Source: a bacterium
GTDB lineage: Bacteria; Patescibacteriota; Saccharimonadia; Saccharimonadales; Saccharimonadaceae
Length of the DNA: 50,536 nucleotides
Direction: 5' to 3'
Assembly: GCA_030427525.1 (NCBI GenBank)
Contig: JAUIBD010000006.1
Location: 1-50,536 of the forward strand
Shown here: positions 32,499-50,536 of the stretch, in pieces
Numbering within the stretch: position 1 is the stretch's first letter
Layout of the letters: each line of letters opens with the position of its first letter
Notes under the pieces: model-generated
Told to the model about the DNA's origin: nothing
Seen by the model: only the letters and a program-made list of their open reading frames with translations
Databases searched by the model: none
Position numbers and translations under genes: made by a program

Positions 32499-33386
32499 CT
32501 ATAACAGGCTGGCTATATGTTCTTTTAAGGCTTTCTCAAGCTCTGGGTGCTTTAGACCAAATTCGATAGTTGTTTTTAAATACTCAAGCGGATTACCCGT
32601 GTCATAAAATTTTGCGCCTTCAATCTCTTTAGCATAGAAATCAATACCATCGTCAATCATTTGCTGTACGTATGGCTGGAAAGTAAACTCGCCCTCCGTA
32701 TGTGTATGCGAACCTTTTTCAATGTATTTCAGCAGTTCGGCCGGCATCAGATAGCCAGAAACGCTGGCAAGGTCGGATGGTGCAGCCTCTTTATTGCCGG
32801 GCTTTTCAACAATTGTAGACATTTTCATCAAACCTTCATCAATTCGATCACCTGCAGCAAATCCATACGTTGCATATTCGGACTCATTTACCACCTTCTT
32901 ACATGCGAAAACCCCTCCGCCGCGCTCTTCATATATTTTCATCATTTGAGCGGTTGAATTGGCTTCAGGGCTAAAGAAATCATCAGCGAATGTGTAGATA
33001 AAAGGTTCATCGCCAATCAAATGCGCGGCGCTGAGTAGTGGGGTTGCATTTCCATATGGACCTTTCTGTCGAACATATACAAAATTCGCCATGTTAGATA
33101 TTCGTTCGACCAGGTCTATGTACGGTTTTTTCTTTTCGCCACCCAGCCTTAAGTTCGAAAGCAACTCCTCGCTCGGCATATCAAAGTGATCCTCAATGGC
33201 TCGTTTATTGCTAGAACCTACTATGATAATGTCTTGGATTCCGGCTTCTACCAATTCTTCTACTACGTACTGAATAATTGGCTTATCGACAAGCGGCATC
33301 ATTTCTTTTGGCATTGCTTTTGTTTGTGGCAAAAAACGTGTTCCAAAACCTGCTGCAGGTATAACTGCTTTACGAACTTTTGTCAT
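32499..33386 (-). CDS. galU: UTP-glucose-1-phosphate uridylyltransferase GalU
   Basis: Makes UDP-glucose from UTP and glucose 1-phosphate for surface glycans. The 295-aa enzyme has KAVIPAAGFGTRFLPQTKAMPKEMMPLVDKP near the N-terminus (nucleotide-binding loop GFGTR and catalytic-site Lys), QYVVEELVEAGI, and the sugar-binding EKP and EGEFTFQPYVQ regions. The start is ATG 33386: GGAGGAAAAA lies directly upstream, inside the end of the nudix gene (17-bp overlap). It is the last gene of the gat operon. Substrate may come from the phosphohexomutase at 6.8 kb. Confidence 0.95.
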   Translation of the reverse strand: MTKVRKAVIPAAGFGTRFLPQTKAMPKEMMPLVDKPIIQYVVEELVEAGIQDIIIVGSSNKRAIEDHFDMPSEELLSNLRLGGEKKKPYIDLVERISNMANFVYVRQKGPYGNATPLLSAAHLIGDEPFIYTFADDFFSPEANSTAQMMKIYEERGGGVFACKKVVNESEYATYGFAAGDRIDEGLMKMSTIVEKPGNKEAAPSDLASVSGYLMPAELLKYIEKGSHTHTEGEFTFQPYVQQMIDDGIDFYAKEIEGAKFYDTGNPLEYLKTTIEFGLKHPELEKALKEHIASLL

Positions 33387-33927
33387 TTTTTTCCTCCATT
33401 GTCTTGATTGTATCATGCGCCATAAATAAAGCTGCAGCATCTGAAGTCATTGCTTCCCGTGCGTATTTCAGCATATTATCGAATGTTTTTAGTTCCACGT
33501 GAGTGAATTCACTATCATCAAGTTTCTTTCCGCCAGATCTATAACAATCAGTTAGCAGATAGTAGTACATCGTATCCATATGGTAGCCAGTTAAATTACC
33601 CTTTCCGAGATACAATAGTTCGTTATCGCTGACGTAGCCAGTCTCTTCGCCAAGTTCACGGCGAGCCGCATCGGCTGGATTTTCACCAGGCTCGCAGCCT
33701 CCACCCGGAAGTTCGAACATAGTTCTTTCTGGACCTGCTCTGAATTGCTTTGCGACAATCACCATGCCATCGGTATCAAGAGCGACAACAACCGCACTAT
33801 CGTGTCCCCAGGTATCGGTTACGAAATCGCCCGTTTTCCCGTCTGGCAATATAAAGTGTTTCACAACAATCTTGCGCCAGCCAAAGTCGGTAACCTCGTC
33901 ATCTTTTTCTCGCTGCCAAGGTTGCAT
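33370..33927 (-). CDS. NUDIX hydrolase, ADP-ribose pyrophosphatase-like
   Basis: A 185-aa NUDIX enzyme. The box GGGCEPGENPADAARRELGEETGY (read as Gx5Ex7REUxEExGU, with REL-GEETG) is intact, near residues 75-98, in a frame like ADP-ribose pyrophosphatases (ELPGG before the box, and the following YLGKGNLTGYHMDTMYYYL). It would hydrolyse nucleoside diphosphate-linked compounds, releasing for example ribose 5-phosphate. AGAGGA precedes the start and the gene follows gatB by 6 bp. The precise substrate is open. Confidence 0.88.
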   Translation of the reverse strand: MQPWQREKDDEVTDFGWRKIVVKHFILPDGKTGDFVTDTWGHDSAVVVALDTDGMVIVAKQFRAGPERTMFELPGGGCEPGENPADAARRELGEETGYVSDNELLYLGKGNLTGYHMDTMYYYLLTDCYRSGGKKLDDSEFTHVELKTFDNMLKYAREAMTSDAAALFMAHDTIKTMEEKNDKSS

Positions 33928-33933
33928 ATTCCT

Positions 33934-35358
33934 CTATAACCTCTCGCGTATCAGCTTTTGGGCCATGCCGGGGTTGGCCTTACCCTGAGATTTTTTCATA
34001 ATCTGGCCTACCAAGAAGCCTATTGCCTTATCGTTTCCAGCCTTAATGTCATCAATCGCCTTTTGACTTGCGGAGTCTGCTAGTACTTCATCTACTATTG
34101 CCGCAATTTCACCTTCATCGCTTACTTGGAGTAAGTTTCTGTCTTCAGCGAGTCTGCGTGGGTCCGTTGCACCATTCATAAGTTCATTGAATAGTTCGCT
34201 TGCTGCATTTGAGGTGATCTCAGCTTTTTCAGTCATCTCACACAAGGCCAAAAGGTCTGCTACGTCAGCGTTCTTCTTTTCATCAGTAGCTTCATCTATA
34301 GTCAAGTTACTAGAGATCCAGTTTGCCACTCGCTTGGCTGCCTTCTTTCCGCCACTGGAAAGTACTGCCGAAACTAATTCGGCATATTTCTGATTGGCCA
34401 AAATACTATTTATCACTGACTTATCGACACCCAAGTCTCCCCATTCCGCACGATATTCTGGAGGTAATTTTGGCAGGTTAGATTGGATTTCCTGAATTTG
34501 CTTATCAGATAGCACGATAGGAGGAATGTCTGGGTCTGGCATATAGCGATAGTCTTGGGCATCTTCTTTGCTGCGCTGGCTGGTTGTTTTACCTTTCGCA
34601 TCATCCCAGCCACGAGTTTCCTGCACGATACGTTCACCCTTTTCCAGCAATGCAACCTGGCGCTTAAACTCATATTCAGCAGCCTTTTCGACGCTCCTGA
34701 AGCTGTTTAGATTCTTCGTTTCTGTGCGTGTGCCAAGTTCTTTCGAGCCTTTTGGCGCGACAGACAAGTTCACATCAAATCGCATATTCCCATGATATAG
34801 GTCTCCATGTGTAATTCCTGCAAAGGTCATTAAACGATATAGTTCAGTCGTATACGCTTTTGCCTCGGTGGGGCTATGCATGTCGGGCTCAGACACAATT
34901 TCAATCAGTGGAGTCCCCGCACGGTTCAAATCGACCAAACTGTAGTCGCCATAATGAGTCAACTTGCCTGCATCTGCTTCAATGTGGGCATGGTGAATAC
35001 GAACTTTTACCGTTGTACCGTCTTCCGTCGGTACATCTATCTCACCTGCTAAAATTGTTGGCTGGTACATCTGTGTTATCTGGTAGCCATTCGGTAGGTC
35101 GGGGTAGAAATAGTGTTTTCGATCAAAACGACTAAGATTGGCAATTTTTGCATTCATCGCTTTACCAGCACGTACAGCCAAGTTTACCGCTTCCTTGTTC
35201 AAGATCGGTAACATGCCAGGCAGACCAAAATCGATTGGGTGCGTCTTACTGTTTGGTTTGGCGTCACGCGCATCATTGTCTGCGGGGCTAAATAGTTTCG
35301 TTTTCGTAGCCAGCTGCACGTGGCACTCAATACCAATCGTCATTTCATATTCAGCCAT
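33934..35358 (-). CDS. gatB: Aspartyl/glutamyl-tRNA amidotransferase subunit B
   Basis: The kinase-like subunit of GatCAB, which converts Glu-tRNA(Gln) and Asp-tRNA(Asn) to the correct amides. In 474 aa the cradle domain starts YEMTIGIECHVQLATKTKLF, with KTHPIDFGLPGMLPILN, FDRKHYFYPDLPNGYQITQ and a YQ/tail domain from about 330, ending KKSQGKANPGMAQKLI. The start codon overlaps the stop of the HEPN-like gene by one base (TAATG). The gene implies indirect amidation for Gln and/or Asn tRNAs. Confidence 0.97.
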   Translation of the reverse strand: MAEYEMTIGIECHVQLATKTKLFSPADNDARDAKPNSKTHPIDFGLPGMLPILNKEAVNLAVRAGKAMNAKIANLSRFDRKHYFYPDLPNGYQITQMYQPTILAGEIDVPTEDGTTVKVRIHHAHIEADAGKLTHYGDYSLVDLNRAGTPLIEIVSEPDMHSPTEAKAYTTELYRLMTFAGITHGDLYHGNMRFDVNLSVAPKGSKELGTRTETKNLNSFRSVEKAAEYEFKRQVALLEKGERIVQETRGWDDAKGKTTSQRSKEDAQDYRYMPDPDIPPIVLSDKQIQEIQSNLPKLPPEYRAEWGDLGVDKSVINSILANQKYAELVSAVLSSGGKKAAKRVANWISSNLTIDEATDEKKNADVADLLALCEMTEKAEITSNAASELFNELMNGATDPRRLAEDRNLLQVSDEGEIAAIVDEVLADSASQKAIDDIKAGNDKAIGFLVGQIMKKSQGKANPGMAQKLIRERL

Positions 35359-35777
35359 TAGATTGCCCCCAGGTCTTTTAGTGACTGCTTGAAGGCAGCT
35401 AGTGCGCGACGTGTAGTGCTATAACTTACTTGCACGTTCTGTTCGTGAGCAATCTGATTACGTAGCTTGTGTGCAGTCCAGGTATTGTTCGCGTTGCTCC
35501 ATGCACTTTTTGCTGTTTTCATGCGCTCACCCATCGTTTCACCTTTATAACCCGATTGTTTCAGTGCCTGGTCTAATAGTTTATCGGCATTAAGTATAGC
35601 CAAGTGATAGCTTGGTTCTTGATTCTTTACTACTTGTTGTTCAATACGCATCCAGTCAGTACGATATTTTTCCACATTGAGTCCCGATGCACCGCGACGT
35701 CCATGCGTAATCAGAAAAAGTATCATACCACCCACTAAGATAATAGCCGCTAAAAATGCTATAAGTAGCCAGTTCAT
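35358..35777 (-). CDS. Membrane-anchored HEPN-like domain protein between gatA and gatB
   Basis: A 139-aa protein with one N-terminal membrane helix (about 3-24), a basic HGRRG stretch, then an all-helical domain (about 35-137). The helical domain contains R106-N107-Q-I-A-H111, fitting the R(N)x4-6H motif of HEPN domains, preceded by HLAILNADKLLDQALKQSG and followed by a Ser/Thr turn and helix, as in HEPN folds. Many HEPN proteins are RNases. It is locked into the gat operon: ATGA overlap with gatA upstream and TAATG overlap with gatB downstream. A role in tRNA or amidotransferase control is only inference. Confidence 0.5.
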   Translation of the reverse strand: MNWLLIAFLAAIILVGGMILFLITHGRRGASGLNVEKYRTDWMRIEQQVVKNQEPSYHLAILNADKLLDQALKQSGYKGETMGERMKTAKSAWSNANNTWTAHKLRNQIAHEQNVQVSYSTTRRALAAFKQSLKDLGAI

Positions 35778-48040: not shown

Positions 48041-48496
48041 CTATGCAAGCTCGTCTAACTGCGCGTTGCGGCGCTTAAATCTGGCGGCTCCGGCAAATTC
48101 TGTATTGAGCCAGGTTTCTAATATGCCTTCCCACAATGCTTCATCGTCTTCTACCACCCGAGCTGGCAAACACAGCACATTGCTATTGTTGTCGTTGCGG
48201 CATTCTTTGGCTTCAAATGCATCCCATATCACTGCGGCGCGTATACCACGAAAGCGGTTTGCTGCCATAGCCATACCCTGGCCGCCGGTACATATCAGAA
48301 TCGCGCGTGGATCGTCTTTTTCCTCCTCGCCCAGCACTTTCAAAGCAGCGAGCTGCGCGAATTCAGGAAAATCGTCTTTTGGGTCGAGCTCTTTGTCGCC
48401 CACATCTTCTACTTCATAGCCGTGTTTTGCCAAATACGCGAAGATTTTCTCTTTTAGGTAAAAGCCACCGTGATCCGCACCCAAGAATAGTTTCAT
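48041..48496 (-). CDS. rpiB: Ribose-5-phosphate isomerase B (RpiB/LacAB family)
   Basis: Isomerises ribose and ribulose 5-phosphate. The 151-aa protein has LGADHGGFYLKEKI, the catalytic Cys in ICTGGQGMAMAANR (CGTGIGM in relatives), GIRAAVIWDAFEAKE and NDNNSNVL. The last motif is HNNANVL in classical RpiB, so the ring-opening His is Asp here; a related sugar isomerase is therefore possible. A consensus-like promoter (TTTACA-17-TATACT) lies just upstream, with the -10 only 7 nt from ATG. It is the first gene of rpiB-rpe. The cassette region starts behind it. Confidence 0.85.
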   Translation of the reverse strand: MKLFLGADHGGFYLKEKIFAYLAKHGYEVEDVGDKELDPKDDFPEFAQLAALKVLGEEEKDDPRAILICTGGQGMAMAANRFRGIRAAVIWDAFEAKECRNDNNSNVLCLPARVVEDDEALWEGILETWLNTEFAGAARFKRRNAQLDELA

Positions 48497-48545: not shown

Positions 48546-48574
48546 TTGACTAATCGTAGTTTTTGTGCTATAAT
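48546..48574 (+). promoter_or_regulatory. Cassette 1 promoter (TTGACT-17-TATAAT)
   Basis: -35 TTGACT at 48546-48551, 17-nt spacer, -10 TATAAT at 48569-48574. The -10 and its surroundings belong to a 23-bp block (48566-48588) repeated exactly at 49075-49097. Transcription should start near 48581. Confidence 0.85.
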
Positions 48575-48588
48575 GAAAAGATAGGCTT
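48566..48588 (+). repeat. Cassette promoter repeat, copy 1 (23 bp)
   Basis: An identical 23-bp copy is at 49075-49097: it begins TGC, includes TATAAT and continues through GAAAAGATAGGCTT. Its AT-rich base composition contrasts with the GC-rich gene it serves. Confidence 0.9.
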
Positions 48589-48597
48589 CACTTTGAA

Positions 48598-48631
48598 CGA
48601 TCACCATCGACACGAGGTGCAGCCTGCACCT
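48598..48631 (+). promoter_or_regulatory. Structured leader of cassette 1 (two hairpins)
   Basis: First a small stem CGAT-CACC-ATCG (48598-48609), then a strong stem AGGTGCA-GCC-TGCACCT (48615-48631). The Shine-Dalgarno GAAGGA follows at 48642-48647, before ATG 48657. Cassette 2 has a matching pair of hairpins at corresponding places. Confidence 0.6.
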
Positions 48632-48656
48632 CAGAACCTGCGAAGGATACCCCGCC

Positions 48657-48959
48657 ATGAGCTCAAGCCGTGTCCAAAGCGTCCTAACGTACCTGGGCGA
48701 CACGGATATCACGCGTAAGGTCGTCTCGAAGAGCGACTCCGGCAACACCATCCGCGCACTCAGCGCCCGCCACAACAGGCTGCGCGAGCGCGGCAACGAC
48801 ATGAGCTGGCGCGACTACTGGCTGCGTCTGGTGCGCGCCGAACACCTTCTCGATGGTGCGCGGCGTGCGCACACGCAAGAGCACTACAAGAAGGCGCGCC
48901 GAATGGCGAGGCGAGGCATCAAGCTCTGCGAGCAGATCACGCTCTCGCCCACGCCCTGA
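48657..48959 (+). CDS. Cassette 1 protein: small basic helical protein, unknown
   Basis: A 100-aa Arg-rich protein with no family I recognise. Nearly every codon ends in G or C, unlike the surrounding genes, which points to foreign origin or separate selection. The C-terminal half (about 58-93: YWLRLVRAEHLLDG, then HYKKARRMARRGIKLCE) looks like a TPR-like helical pair with a positive face that could bind nucleic acid; this is inference. A good Shine-Dalgarno (GAAGGA) is 9 nt before ATG. The stop codon TGA is already part of the shared 3' repeat. It lies antisense to the direction of gap and rpiB. Confidence 0.7.
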   Translation: MSSSRVQSVLTYLGDTDITRKVVSKSDSGNTIRALSARHNRLRERGNDMSWRDYWLRLVRAEHLLDGARRAHTQEHYKKARRMARRGIKLCEQITLSPTP

Positions 48960-49009
48960 GGTGCGACGGGCTCCGTGGGACACCGTCCCGCGGAGCCCGC
49001 GCTTCAAAG
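48956..49009 (+). repeat. Cassette 3' hairpin repeat, copy 1 (54 bp)
   Basis: Matches 49529-49582 over 54 bp with three mismatches. It contains an inverted repeat GGGCTCCGTGGGAC (48968-48981), loop ACC, GTCCCGCGGAGCCC (48985-48998), a 14-bp stem with one G-T pair, extended by one C-G. No T-tract follows directly. It may act as a terminator stem, RNA stabiliser or recombination site. Confidence 0.85.
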
Positions 49010-49011
49010 TT

Positions 49012-49036
49012 ACACCCAAGCAGGTTGTTTATTTTT
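49012..49036 (+). terminator. Weak AT-rich terminator after cassette 1
   Basis: ACACC (49012-49016) can pair with GG(T)TGT (49023-49028, one bulged T), followed by a T-rich stretch to 49036. It corresponds to the better terminator after cassette 2 (both contain CACCCAAG) and looks like a decayed copy. Confidence 0.4.
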
Positions 49037-49054
49037 ATCATAGCACTTGATATA

Positions 49055-49083
49055 TTGACTTTTTATACCATTTATGCTATAAT
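49055..49083 (+). promoter_or_regulatory. Cassette 2 promoter (TTGACT-17-TATAAT)
   Basis: -35 TTGACT at 49055-49060, 17-nt spacer of different sequence from cassette 1, -10 TATAAT at 49078-49083. The distance to the cassette 1 promoter is 509 bp. Confidence 0.85.
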
Positions 49084-49097
49084 GAAAAGATAGGCTT
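49075..49097 (+). repeat. Cassette promoter repeat, copy 2 (23 bp)
   Basis: Identical to 48566-48588, covering the -10 box and the first transcribed bases. Confidence 0.9.
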
Positions 49098-49102
49098 ACC
49101 TC

Positions 49103-49139
49103 TCTATACATCTACATAGATCGAGGTGCGCCTGCACCT
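49103..49139 (+). promoter_or_regulatory. Structured leader of cassette 2 (two hairpins)
   Basis: TCTAT (49103-49107) pairs with ATAGA (49116-49120); then AGGTGC (49124-49129), loop GCCT, GCACCT (49134-49139). The first stem differs in sequence from that of cassette 1 yet still pairs; the second is nearly the same. A weak GGAAAG lies before ATG 49160. Confidence 0.6.
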
Positions 49140-49159
49140 TAGATCGGAAAGTTGACCCC

Positions 49160-49522
49160 ATGTTGTTCAACCTGATGCTCATCAGCGGCATGGTCCTGAC
49201 GGTGGTTCTTCCCGGAGTGGCGTTGTTGGCGATCGTGTACAACTATCGCGGCCGCTTCAAGTTCATGCTCGCCGCCTTGGCGATCACGCTCACCGGGAAC
49301 CTCGAGATCATCGTCTGGGCGTACGCCGCTCTCACGAAGCCGGACTGGACGATCAACAACCCACCGGCGCTCGCGCTGGTCACAACATTGATCCTCAGCG
49401 CAGATCTCGTGGTGCTCGTGCTGTTCTGCAGCCCGCAACTGAACGCACTCTACGAGAAGCGGCACCCCGTGACGTTCCCCAACATCGACCGCGTCTACTC
49501 AGTCAAGCCGCCCGACAGCTGA
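49160..49522 (+). CDS. Cassette 2 protein: small three-helix membrane protein, unknown
   Basis: A 120-aa protein with three predicted membrane helices (about 5-27, 34-58 and 70-92), a short basic loop (NYRGRFKF) between the first two, and a polar C-terminal tail (about 93-120, YEKRHPVTFPNIDRVYSVKPPDS, read in part). No named family. Codons end mostly in G or C, as in cassette 1 and unlike gap and rpiB. The leader and 3' hairpin are shared with cassette 1 while the protein is unrelated. The long open frame on the opposite strand is a by-product of the GC-rich codons. Confidence 0.7.
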   Translation: MLFNLMLISGMVLTVVLPGVALLAIVYNYRGRFKFMLAALAITLTGNLEIIVWAYAALTKPDWTINNPPALALVTTLILSADLVVLVLFCSPQLNALYEKRHPVTFPNIDRVYSVKPPDS

Positions 49523-49528
49523 CCACTT

Positions 49529-49582
49529 CTGAGATGCGACGGGCTCCGCGGGACATCGTCCCGCGGAGCCCGCGCTTCAAAG
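49529..49582 (+). repeat. Cassette 3' hairpin repeat, copy 2 (54 bp)
   Basis: 51 of 54 positions match 48956-49009. The inverted repeat GGGCTCCGCGGGAC (49541-49554), loop ATC, GTCCCGCGGAGCCC (49558-49571) is perfect over 14 bp, so the mismatch of copy 1 (G-T pair) is a fully paired C-G here. Confidence 0.85.
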
Positions 49583-49588
49583 ATATTT

Positions 49589-49610
49589 CACCCAAGATGG
49601 GTGTTTTTTT
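49589..49610 (+). terminator. Intrinsic terminator after cassette 2
   Basis: CACCCA (49589-49594), loop AGA, TGGGTG (49598-49603), then seven T (49604-49610). The T-tract overlaps the stop codon of the convergent gap gene. Confidence 0.85.
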
Positions 49611-50536
49611 ATTGCAAACTTTTACCAACGTCGGCAACGAGTTCAACCAAACGATTCGAATACCCCCACTCGTTGTCGTACCATACCATCACTTTTATCA
49701 GGTTGCCATCGACGACTTTGGTCAGTGGCAAGTCCACCGTGCCAGAATTACTATTACCAATGTAATCACTCGAAACTAATGGTTCGTCTGACACGCCTAA
49801 AATTCCCTGGTAGTAATCTTGCGCGGCCGCTTTTTTAAACGCTTCGTTCACTTCTTCTACAGTTACGTCTTTTGAAAGTAACGCGGTAACATCTGAAATC
49901 GATACCACAGGAGTTGGCACACGTACGCTCACGCCATCAAACTTGCCCTCTAGCTGTGGCAATGTTTTCGTAACAGCAATGGCAGCGCCGGTAGTGGTAG
50001 GTACCATGTTTTCAGCAGCGTTGCGGCCCTCACGCAGGTCTTTGGCTGGAGCATCCTGTAGTTTTTGACTGGCGGTGTAGCTGTGAACTGTGGTCAACAT
50101 ACTTTTTTCGACGCCGAATTCAGCGTCGAGAACGGCCATCACCGCACCCAAGCTGTTGGTAGTACAGCTGGCGTTTGAAATCACTTCAGTCGCGCCTTCT
50201 ACCTTGTCGTCGTTGGCGCCTAGGACAATCGTATCCACGCCATCCGATTTAGTTGGGCCAGATATTACCACGCGTTTCGCACCGGCCTGAATGTGCTTGC
50301 TTGCACCTTCTTTATCGGTAAAAAAACCAGTACTTTCAATCACCAAGTCGACGCCCATGTCACCCCATGGCAGCGCAGCAGGATCTTTCTCAGCTAACAC
50401 CTTTACCTTTTTGCCATCAACACTAAAGCCGTCTTCCTCTGCCTTTACATCGTGGCCATAGGTGCCGTAGTTGCTGTCGTGTTTCAGCAAGTACGCCAGT
50501 GTTTTATTATCTGTTAGGTCATTTATGGCGACAATC
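49609..50536 (-). CDS. gap: Glyceraldehyde-3-phosphate dehydrogenase (N-terminus outside window)
   Basis: Oxidises glyceraldehyde 3-phosphate to 1,3-bisphosphoglycerate in glycolysis. The frame runs to the right edge; visible residues start IVAINDLTDNKTLAYLLKHDS, so only a short N-terminal part with the NAD-binding GxGxxG loop is missing. The catalytic Cys is in SNASCTTNSLG, the His in HSYTASQ, and RVPTPVVS and WYDNEWGYSNRLVEL end the domain. Coenzyme specificity cannot be judged because the deciding N-terminal loop is outside. It converges on cassette 2, and its stop lies in that cassette's terminator. Confidence 0.97.
   Translation of the reverse strand, partial: IVAINDLTDNKTLAYLLKHDSNYGTYGHDVKAEEDGFSVDGKKVKVLAEKDPAALPWGDMGVDLVIESTGFFTDKEGASKHIQAGAKRVVISGPTKSDGVDTIVLGANDDKVEGATEVISNASCTTNSLGAVMAVLDAEFGVEKSMLTTVHSYTASQKLQDAPAKDLREGRNAAENMVPTTTGAAIAVTKTLPQLEGKFDGVSVRVPTPVVSISDVTALLSKDVTVEEVNEAFKKAAAQDYYQGILGVSDEPLVSSDYIGNSNSGTVDLPLTKVVDGNLIKVMVWYDNEWGYSNRLVELVADVGKSLQ

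Follow-up and report, generated by a model that had tools for sequence, protein, structure and literature searches.

Type I toxin messages of the hok and aapA kind carry 5' hairpins during synthesis that give way, in the full-length message, to long-distance pairing between the 5' and 3' ends (PMC6733600); for hok, the passages of that article that cite Gultyaev 1997 attribute to it covariation along the folding pathway. Phage morons are single ORFs of odd composition, each with its own promoter and terminator, lodged between two conserved phage genes (PMC4378225). The toxin messages offer the nearest described logic for the leader RNA that we report from a 50,536-nt stretch (the window) of a Saccharimonadaceae genome of ~1 Mb, whose relatives are recorded as Saccharibacteria. 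It resembles an RNA switch not described before more than a pair of ordinary hairpins. The best explanation, which we hold to be probable and whose functional side we infer, is a bistable leader that pairs its 5' end only when the 3' end of the message is intact.

Two cassettes sit in the window between an rpiB-type and a gap-type gene. Each comprises a near-consensus promoter, a leader, a small GC-rich ORF and a GC-rich trailer hairpin, with 76-82 nt from the -10 box to the start codon. The leader has two candidate folds. In state A, the hairpin-2 loop pairs with the first transcribed bases, and the 5' arm of that hairpin, c', pairs with c, a segment resembling ACCTC. In state B, which is hairpin 2 itself, c' (GAGGTGC) pairs with c'' and the 5' end is left single-stranded. 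As both states use the GAGGTGC segment, they are mutually exclusive. The trailer opens with (C)TGAGGTGC, termed c''', which is complementary to c'' and overlaps the stop codon in most cassettes. The features of the window are:

48041-48496, minus strand: flanking gene, which from reading its sequence we take to be of the ribose-5-phosphate isomerase B type (rpiB)
48546..48574, plus strand: cassette 1 promoter, TTGACT, 17 nt, TG-C-TATAAT (11/12 matches)
48582..48626, plus strand: cassette 1 state A, 5'-terminal hairpin (folding z -4.0, covariation); TAGGCT (48582-48587) and AGCCTG (48621-48626) form outer stem a, CACTTTG and CGAGGTG inner stem c
48598-48609, plus strand: cassette 1 apical stem CGAT/ATCG, the stem 1 of an earlier, preliminary description
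48614..48632, plus strand: cassette 1 state B, the hairpin 2 of that description, conserved to 48635; c' GAGGTGC (48614-48620), c'' GCACCTC (48626-48632)
48642..48647, plus strand: cassette 1 likely Shine-Dalgarno GAAGGA, judged from the sequence
48657..48959, plus strand: ORF 1 (P0001), 100 aa, GC3 0.83, no confident family
48956..48964, plus strand: cassette 1 c''' CTGAGGTGC, a complement of c'' that overlaps the stop codon
48967..48999, plus strand: cassette 1 GC-rich trailer hairpin
49055..49083, plus strand: cassette 2 promoter, TTGACT, 17 nt, TG-C-TATAAT
49091..49134, plus strand: cassette 2 state A (folding z -4.2, covariation); TAGGC (49091-49095) and GCCTG (49130-49134) form stem a, TACCTC and GAGGTG the inner stem, TCTAT and ATAGA the apical stem, again the earlier stem 1
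49123..49140, plus strand: cassette 2 state B; c' GAGGTGC (49123-49129), c'' GCACCTT (49134-49140)
49160..49522, plus strand: ORF 2 (P0002), 120 aa, GC3 0.88, three predicted long helices
49529..49537, plus strand: cassette 2 c''' CTGAGATGC, right after the stop codon, one mismatch to c''
49540..49572, plus strand: cassette 2 GC-rich trailer hairpin
49589..49610, plus strand: cassette 2 intrinsic terminator CACCCAAGATGGGTG-TTTTTTT
49609-50490, minus strand: flanking gene, presumably, again from reading, of the glyceraldehyde-3-phosphate dehydrogenase type (gap)

The preliminary description had seen two separate hairpins in each leader, the first with its pairing but not its bases preserved, and the strings that it quoted recur exactly in cassette 1 (CGATCACCATCG, 48598-48609; AGGTGCAGCCTGCACCT, 48615-48631) and cassette 2 (TCTATACATCTACATAGA, 49103-49120; AGGTGCGCCTGCACCT, 49124-49139). 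Its stem 1 does not by itself exceed chance, an equally long stem arising in shuffled leaders with P=0.39 for cassette 1 and P=0.15 for cassette 2, whereas the whole 5' hairpin does (z=-4.0 and z=-4.2). Hairpin 2 is real, but the covarying unit is this longer hairpin, an alternative to hairpin 2 and not its neighbour. The broader proposal of a selected RNA structure common to the cassettes is upheld by covariation in an alignment of 25 leaders and by permutation (p<=1e-5).

These 25 distinct leaders were collected from the window, loci of the genus, a pattern scan of GTDB and a covariance-model scan, and represent 18 genomes and 8 genera of one Saccharibacteria family. State A, of which stem 1 is the apical stem, begins at the predicted transcription start and ends inside the hairpin-2 loop, and the 5' part of every leader folds into it except in the weak case L094. 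The 5' element and its loop partner differ between leaders while remaining paired: AGGCT with AGCCT in window cassette 1, GCTTTCG with CGAAAGC (L051), ACTTCTG with CAGAAGT (L043), CGTGGA with TCCATG (G009) and CTAACACTT with GAGGTGTTAG (L098). In related leaders the apical stem shrinks symmetrically, from TCTAT/ATAGA (W2) through TCTA/TAGA (C1c) to TCT/AGA (G011a, G001). The 5' element pairs with its own loop at -5.61 as against -3.42 +/- 0.39 with the loops of other cassettes (p<=1e-5), and own-loop pairing recurs in the 10 leaders collected after the hypothesis was set (p=0.0026), in permutation tests that model phylogeny only partly. In a MAFFT alignment built on sequence only, state-A pairs show 12 double changes against 4.5 in shuffled alignments (0/500), with a covariation score of 0.214 against 0.144 +/- 0.017 that none of the 500 shuffles reaches; controls slid along the alignment score 0.06-0.10, the best 0.104. 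In 23/25 leaders, versus 21% of shuffled ones (p 6e-14), the first paired base is 7-11 nt downstream of the -10 box, which was read by eye in the few leaders that lack a perfect one. The last paired base lies 0-4 nt before c''. Counts of G-U versus A-C for the c/c' stem were set aside as uninformative, the shuffled ratio being already 6:1.

Hairpin 2 is almost invariant across the 25 leaders, and its covariation does not go beyond that of shuffles (103/500 reach it). Judged against shuffles, the state-A pairs thus stand above background and those of hairpin 2 within it: this hairpin is maintained by sequence, not covariation. Its departures are G-U, never A-C (6:0), and the spacing of its arms varies among leaders. 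Overall, only c', c'' and the AGA that follows are conserved; c'' is the most conserved piece, and its sequence is retained even where c' drifts, which could point to a protein or some other partner. We regard the two-state structure of the leader as very likely.

A further layer concerns the 3' end, where c''' is able, in silico, to capture the 3' arm of hairpin 2. Under partition-function folding, with energies from 37 C RNA parameters and without kinetics, the leader plus 60 nt favours state B (mean 0.70), and the whole message yields state A at 0.64 against 0.28 with shuffled trailers (p 8e-6). Pairing of c'' with the trailer stands at 0.52 versus 0.07 when shuffled (p 1e-4; duplex Fisher p 3e-22). 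The c''-c''' pairing probability is 0.94 in cassette 1 versus 0.17 with shuffled trailers, and 0.23 versus 0.10 in cassette 2 (duplex p 0.025). The only two leaders with CTCGG in c'' (G011b, L105) both carry CGAGG in c'''. The expected c''-c''' mismatch is seen in G001, which, from its sequence, looks like a G011a-type leader recombined with a G011b-type ORF and trailer. A.C mismatches occur in C1a, C1b, W2, L041 and G001, and the pairing is absent or weak in C1b, L041, L042, L095 and L101; in silico, long-distance 5'-3' pairing together with alternative 5' hairpins is clear in about half to two thirds of the cassettes. Because several cassettes keep mismatches, the c''-c''' layer is less secure than state A, and we judge the interaction to be likely, by a modest balance of the evidence. 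Shuffling the trailers leaves access to the ribosome site unchanged (Shine-Dalgarno 0.42 vs 0.41, p 0.90; AUG p 0.81), and a model in which the trailer masks the Shine-Dalgarno sequence is therefore unsupported.

The ORF under each leader is small (76-155 aa) and in most cases GC-rich, with GC3 of 0.56-0.93 compared with 0.40-0.54 in the measured genes of the window. Neighbouring strains have different ORFs at the same site, inside a nearly identical shell: W2 and C1c, from two strains, have nearly identical leaders and trailers around ORFs of different families. One orthologous pair of ORFs gives dN 0.054 and dS 0.207, which fits purifying selection on the cassette proteins. Many of the ORFs are small and hydrophobic, several contain hydrophobic helices, and several look like membrane proteins. 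The cassette proteins searched against Pfam, PHROGs and NCBIfam gave no match near the curated cut-offs, tblastn of two of them against phages gave none, and Foldseek of the P0002 model (three long helices, predicted at modest confidence) against viral structures returned nothing below E 2.

Across genomes of the genus the same rpiB-gap interval is empty, degraded or occupied by one or more cassettes. Among 84,980 species genomes scanned by pattern, real cassettes occurred only in Saccharibacteria-like records, and exact-hairpin patterns recovered only close relatives. A covariance model built solely from hairpin 2 and the sequence profile matched 18/394 genomes and 8/61 genera of the family, and in a phylum sample gave one match beyond its own genome, again in the same family; this model, R1, which was trained on these leaders, returned nothing from the other families of the order or from outside the family in the phylum sample. 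One candidate, L056, is a chance match inside a penicillin-binding protein gene, and L046-L048, L050, L052 and L054 also look like chance matches. Rfam release 15 offered no family for the leader above the gathering score, with none credible even at E 5, and identified only a tRNA in the window; our literature searches turned up no described leader RNA of this kind for Saccharibacteria.

The interval itself has further occupants. Contig C1 of the window's own assembly (G000, 32767-35445; L004, L036) has a second rpiB-gap locus, its rpiB 93% identical to that of the window, where three further, different cassettes accompany a lipoprotein-like ORF; this is probably a second strain in the bin. 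The rpiB-gap interval of G034 (L073) contains a large GC-rich ORF in opposite orientation without a cassette leader, which suggests that insertions of various kinds favour this interval. A double-palindrome element (GGAGGGGCTC.CCCCTCC then GCTTTGAAATNAATTCAAAGC) adjoins gap in three genomes (L111, G000:C1:32767; L108, G011:C1:235574; L109, G001:C1:257837) and is almost unique there, a second similar element standing 5' of the cassette promoter in G001; it may be a small mobile repeat.

Both window cassettes have in common a 23-bp block, TGCTATAATGAAAAGATAGGCTT (48566-48588 and 49075-49097), consisting of the extended -10 promoter and the predicted first transcribed bases, with -35 boxes TTGACT at 48546 and 49055. 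The block, downstream of which the preliminary description proposed to collect leaders, is not confined to the cassettes: near copies with 1-2 mismatches stand at other promoters in the same genome and in four other genera of the family. Promoters match at 9-12 of 12 positions in 24/25 cassettes; in C1a, where the search lacked upstream sequence to read, TTGACT-17-TATAAT is visible on reading the locus. Elsewhere, the same promoter block, TATAATGAAAAGATAGGCC (L012, G022:C1:152319-152338) is followed directly by a terminator-like hairpin, GATAGGCCAGA..TCTGGCCTATC-TTTT. At L003 (G000:C16:7233) the promoter block drives a gene that by reading alone we take to be secreted and polysaccharide-deacetylase-like, and whose Shine-Dalgarno sequence GAGGTGCC has the same letters as c'.

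That the hairpins are incidental, a short chance stem beside a conserved palindrome, is scarcely credible: stem 1 alone is indeed expected in 15-39% of shuffled leaders and hairpin 2 lacks covariation, but the longer hairpin is backed by permutation, alignment shuffles, slid controls and its start position. The repeats might instead act as DNA, the inverted repeats of leader and trailer being folded or bound by a recombinase or repressor, as in an operator, an attC-like site or terminal repeats that serve to exchange ORFs. GAGGTGC/GCACCTC is a perfect palindrome, GCACCTCAGA and TCTGAGGTGC flank the ORF as inverted repeats, W2 and C1c differ in ORF family within their common shell, and G001 resembles leader a fused to ORF b of G011. 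We nevertheless consider this unlikely, as a DNA site would have no reason to begin, like state A, at the predicted transcription start; moreover, the arm spacing of hairpin 2 varies, unlike that of a dimer operator, its G-U-only departures argue against a DNA site, and neither a recombinase gene nor inverted ORFs were seen beside the cassettes.

A ligand-binding riboswitch or protein-responsive leader, with GCACCTYAGA at c'' as the recognised motif, would draw on c'' as the most conserved piece and on two exclusive folds, the usual logic of riboswitches. It is nonetheless improbable, given an apical part of state A that varies widely in length and has no conserved loop or aptamer-like core, a hairpin B without a terminator U-run, and the lack of an Rfam family match. 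Messages of the Hok/AapA kind, in which small membrane toxins are encoded, long-distance 5'-3' contacts and metastable hairpins at the 5' end keep the mRNA inert, and an antisense RNA serves as antitoxin, would agree with the many small hydrophobic ORFs and with the alternative 5' hairpin and full-message 5'-3' pairing found here in silico, as in aapA3 and hok (PMC6733600). The ORFs, however, reach 76-155 aa, antisense promoters score in the cassettes as in shuffles (one 10/12 site in L092), and the trailer does not alter Shine-Dalgarno or start-codon access, whereas in aapA3 the Shine-Dalgarno sequence is masked (PMC6733600). Because such masking and an antisense promoter above the shuffled level were sought and not found, we do not file the cassettes under hok/aapA, a placement that we rate as quite improbable.

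We favour, instead, a bistable leader coupled to the 3' end of its message, in which one segment and its repeats would form a relay: c, c', c'' (GCACCTCAGA) and, at the stop codon, c'''. With c paired to c' and the first transcribed bases held by the hairpin-2 loop, the 5' end would lie in a terminal stem; with c' paired to c'', it would be single-stranded. In a message that retains its 3' part, c''' could hold c'' and release c' to c, favouring state A. The computed ground for this scheme comprises the covariation and conservation of state A, its start at the predicted transcription start, the conservation of state B and the shift that the trailer causes in the folding ensemble. In bacterial mRNA decay, RNases that depend on the 5' end are expected to be hindered by a stem that starts with the first transcribed bases, and this favours, by inference, a switch of message stability. 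State A might accordingly protect the 5' end of the message, a suggestion that we make tentatively, and so, for as long as the 3' end is intact, shield it from decay that depends on the 5' end. A ribosome at the stop codon, or 3' trimming, could then free c'' and flip the leader to state B, and the flip would tune mRNA lifetime for small, often membrane, proteins. The full version, a message-integrity switch whose 5' end is paired only while the stop-codon region is free to hold c'', such that termination or 3' decay is signalled back to the 5' end, is a doubtful but conceivable extension.

If correct, these proposals would define an undescribed structured mRNA element in Saccharibacteria and a two-state leader coupled to the 3' end outside toxin-antitoxin systems; were the message-integrity switch to hold, an RNA shell would be travelling, in tiny bacteria that depend on hosts, together with ORFs that are exchangeable and mostly GC-rich. 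The leader also singles out a class of strain-variable genes, small and often GC-rich, in ~1 Mb genomes, as candidates for traits in which close relatives differ, such as interaction with their host bacteria.

As genetic units the cassettes resemble morons, being single ORFs with their own promoter and terminator and a different base composition, set between conserved genes; unlike morons, they are chromosomal, beside rpiB and gap with no phage genes seen there, and all have a structured leader in common. They recall integron cassettes as exchangeable single-ORF units at a fixed place, but nearly every one has its own promoter, no integrase was seen in the loci read, and the folded site is in the leader and not, as with attC, after the ORF. 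From a dimer operator they differ in an inverted repeat, hairpin 2, without fixed spacing. With hok and aapA they appear to have in common, in silico, alternative 5' hairpins and 5'-3' pairing in the full-length message, whereas their ORFs are longer, no antisense promoter above shuffles was found, trailer pairing does not mask the Shine-Dalgarno sequence, and many unrelated ORFs stand under one leader family. Bistable and riboswitch-like 5' UTRs offer the likeness of anti- and anti-anti-segments, c' choosing an upstream or a downstream partner; in the cassette leader no conserved aptamer, terminator or Shine-Dalgarno sequestration is seen, and the cassettes add a third partner, at the stop codon.
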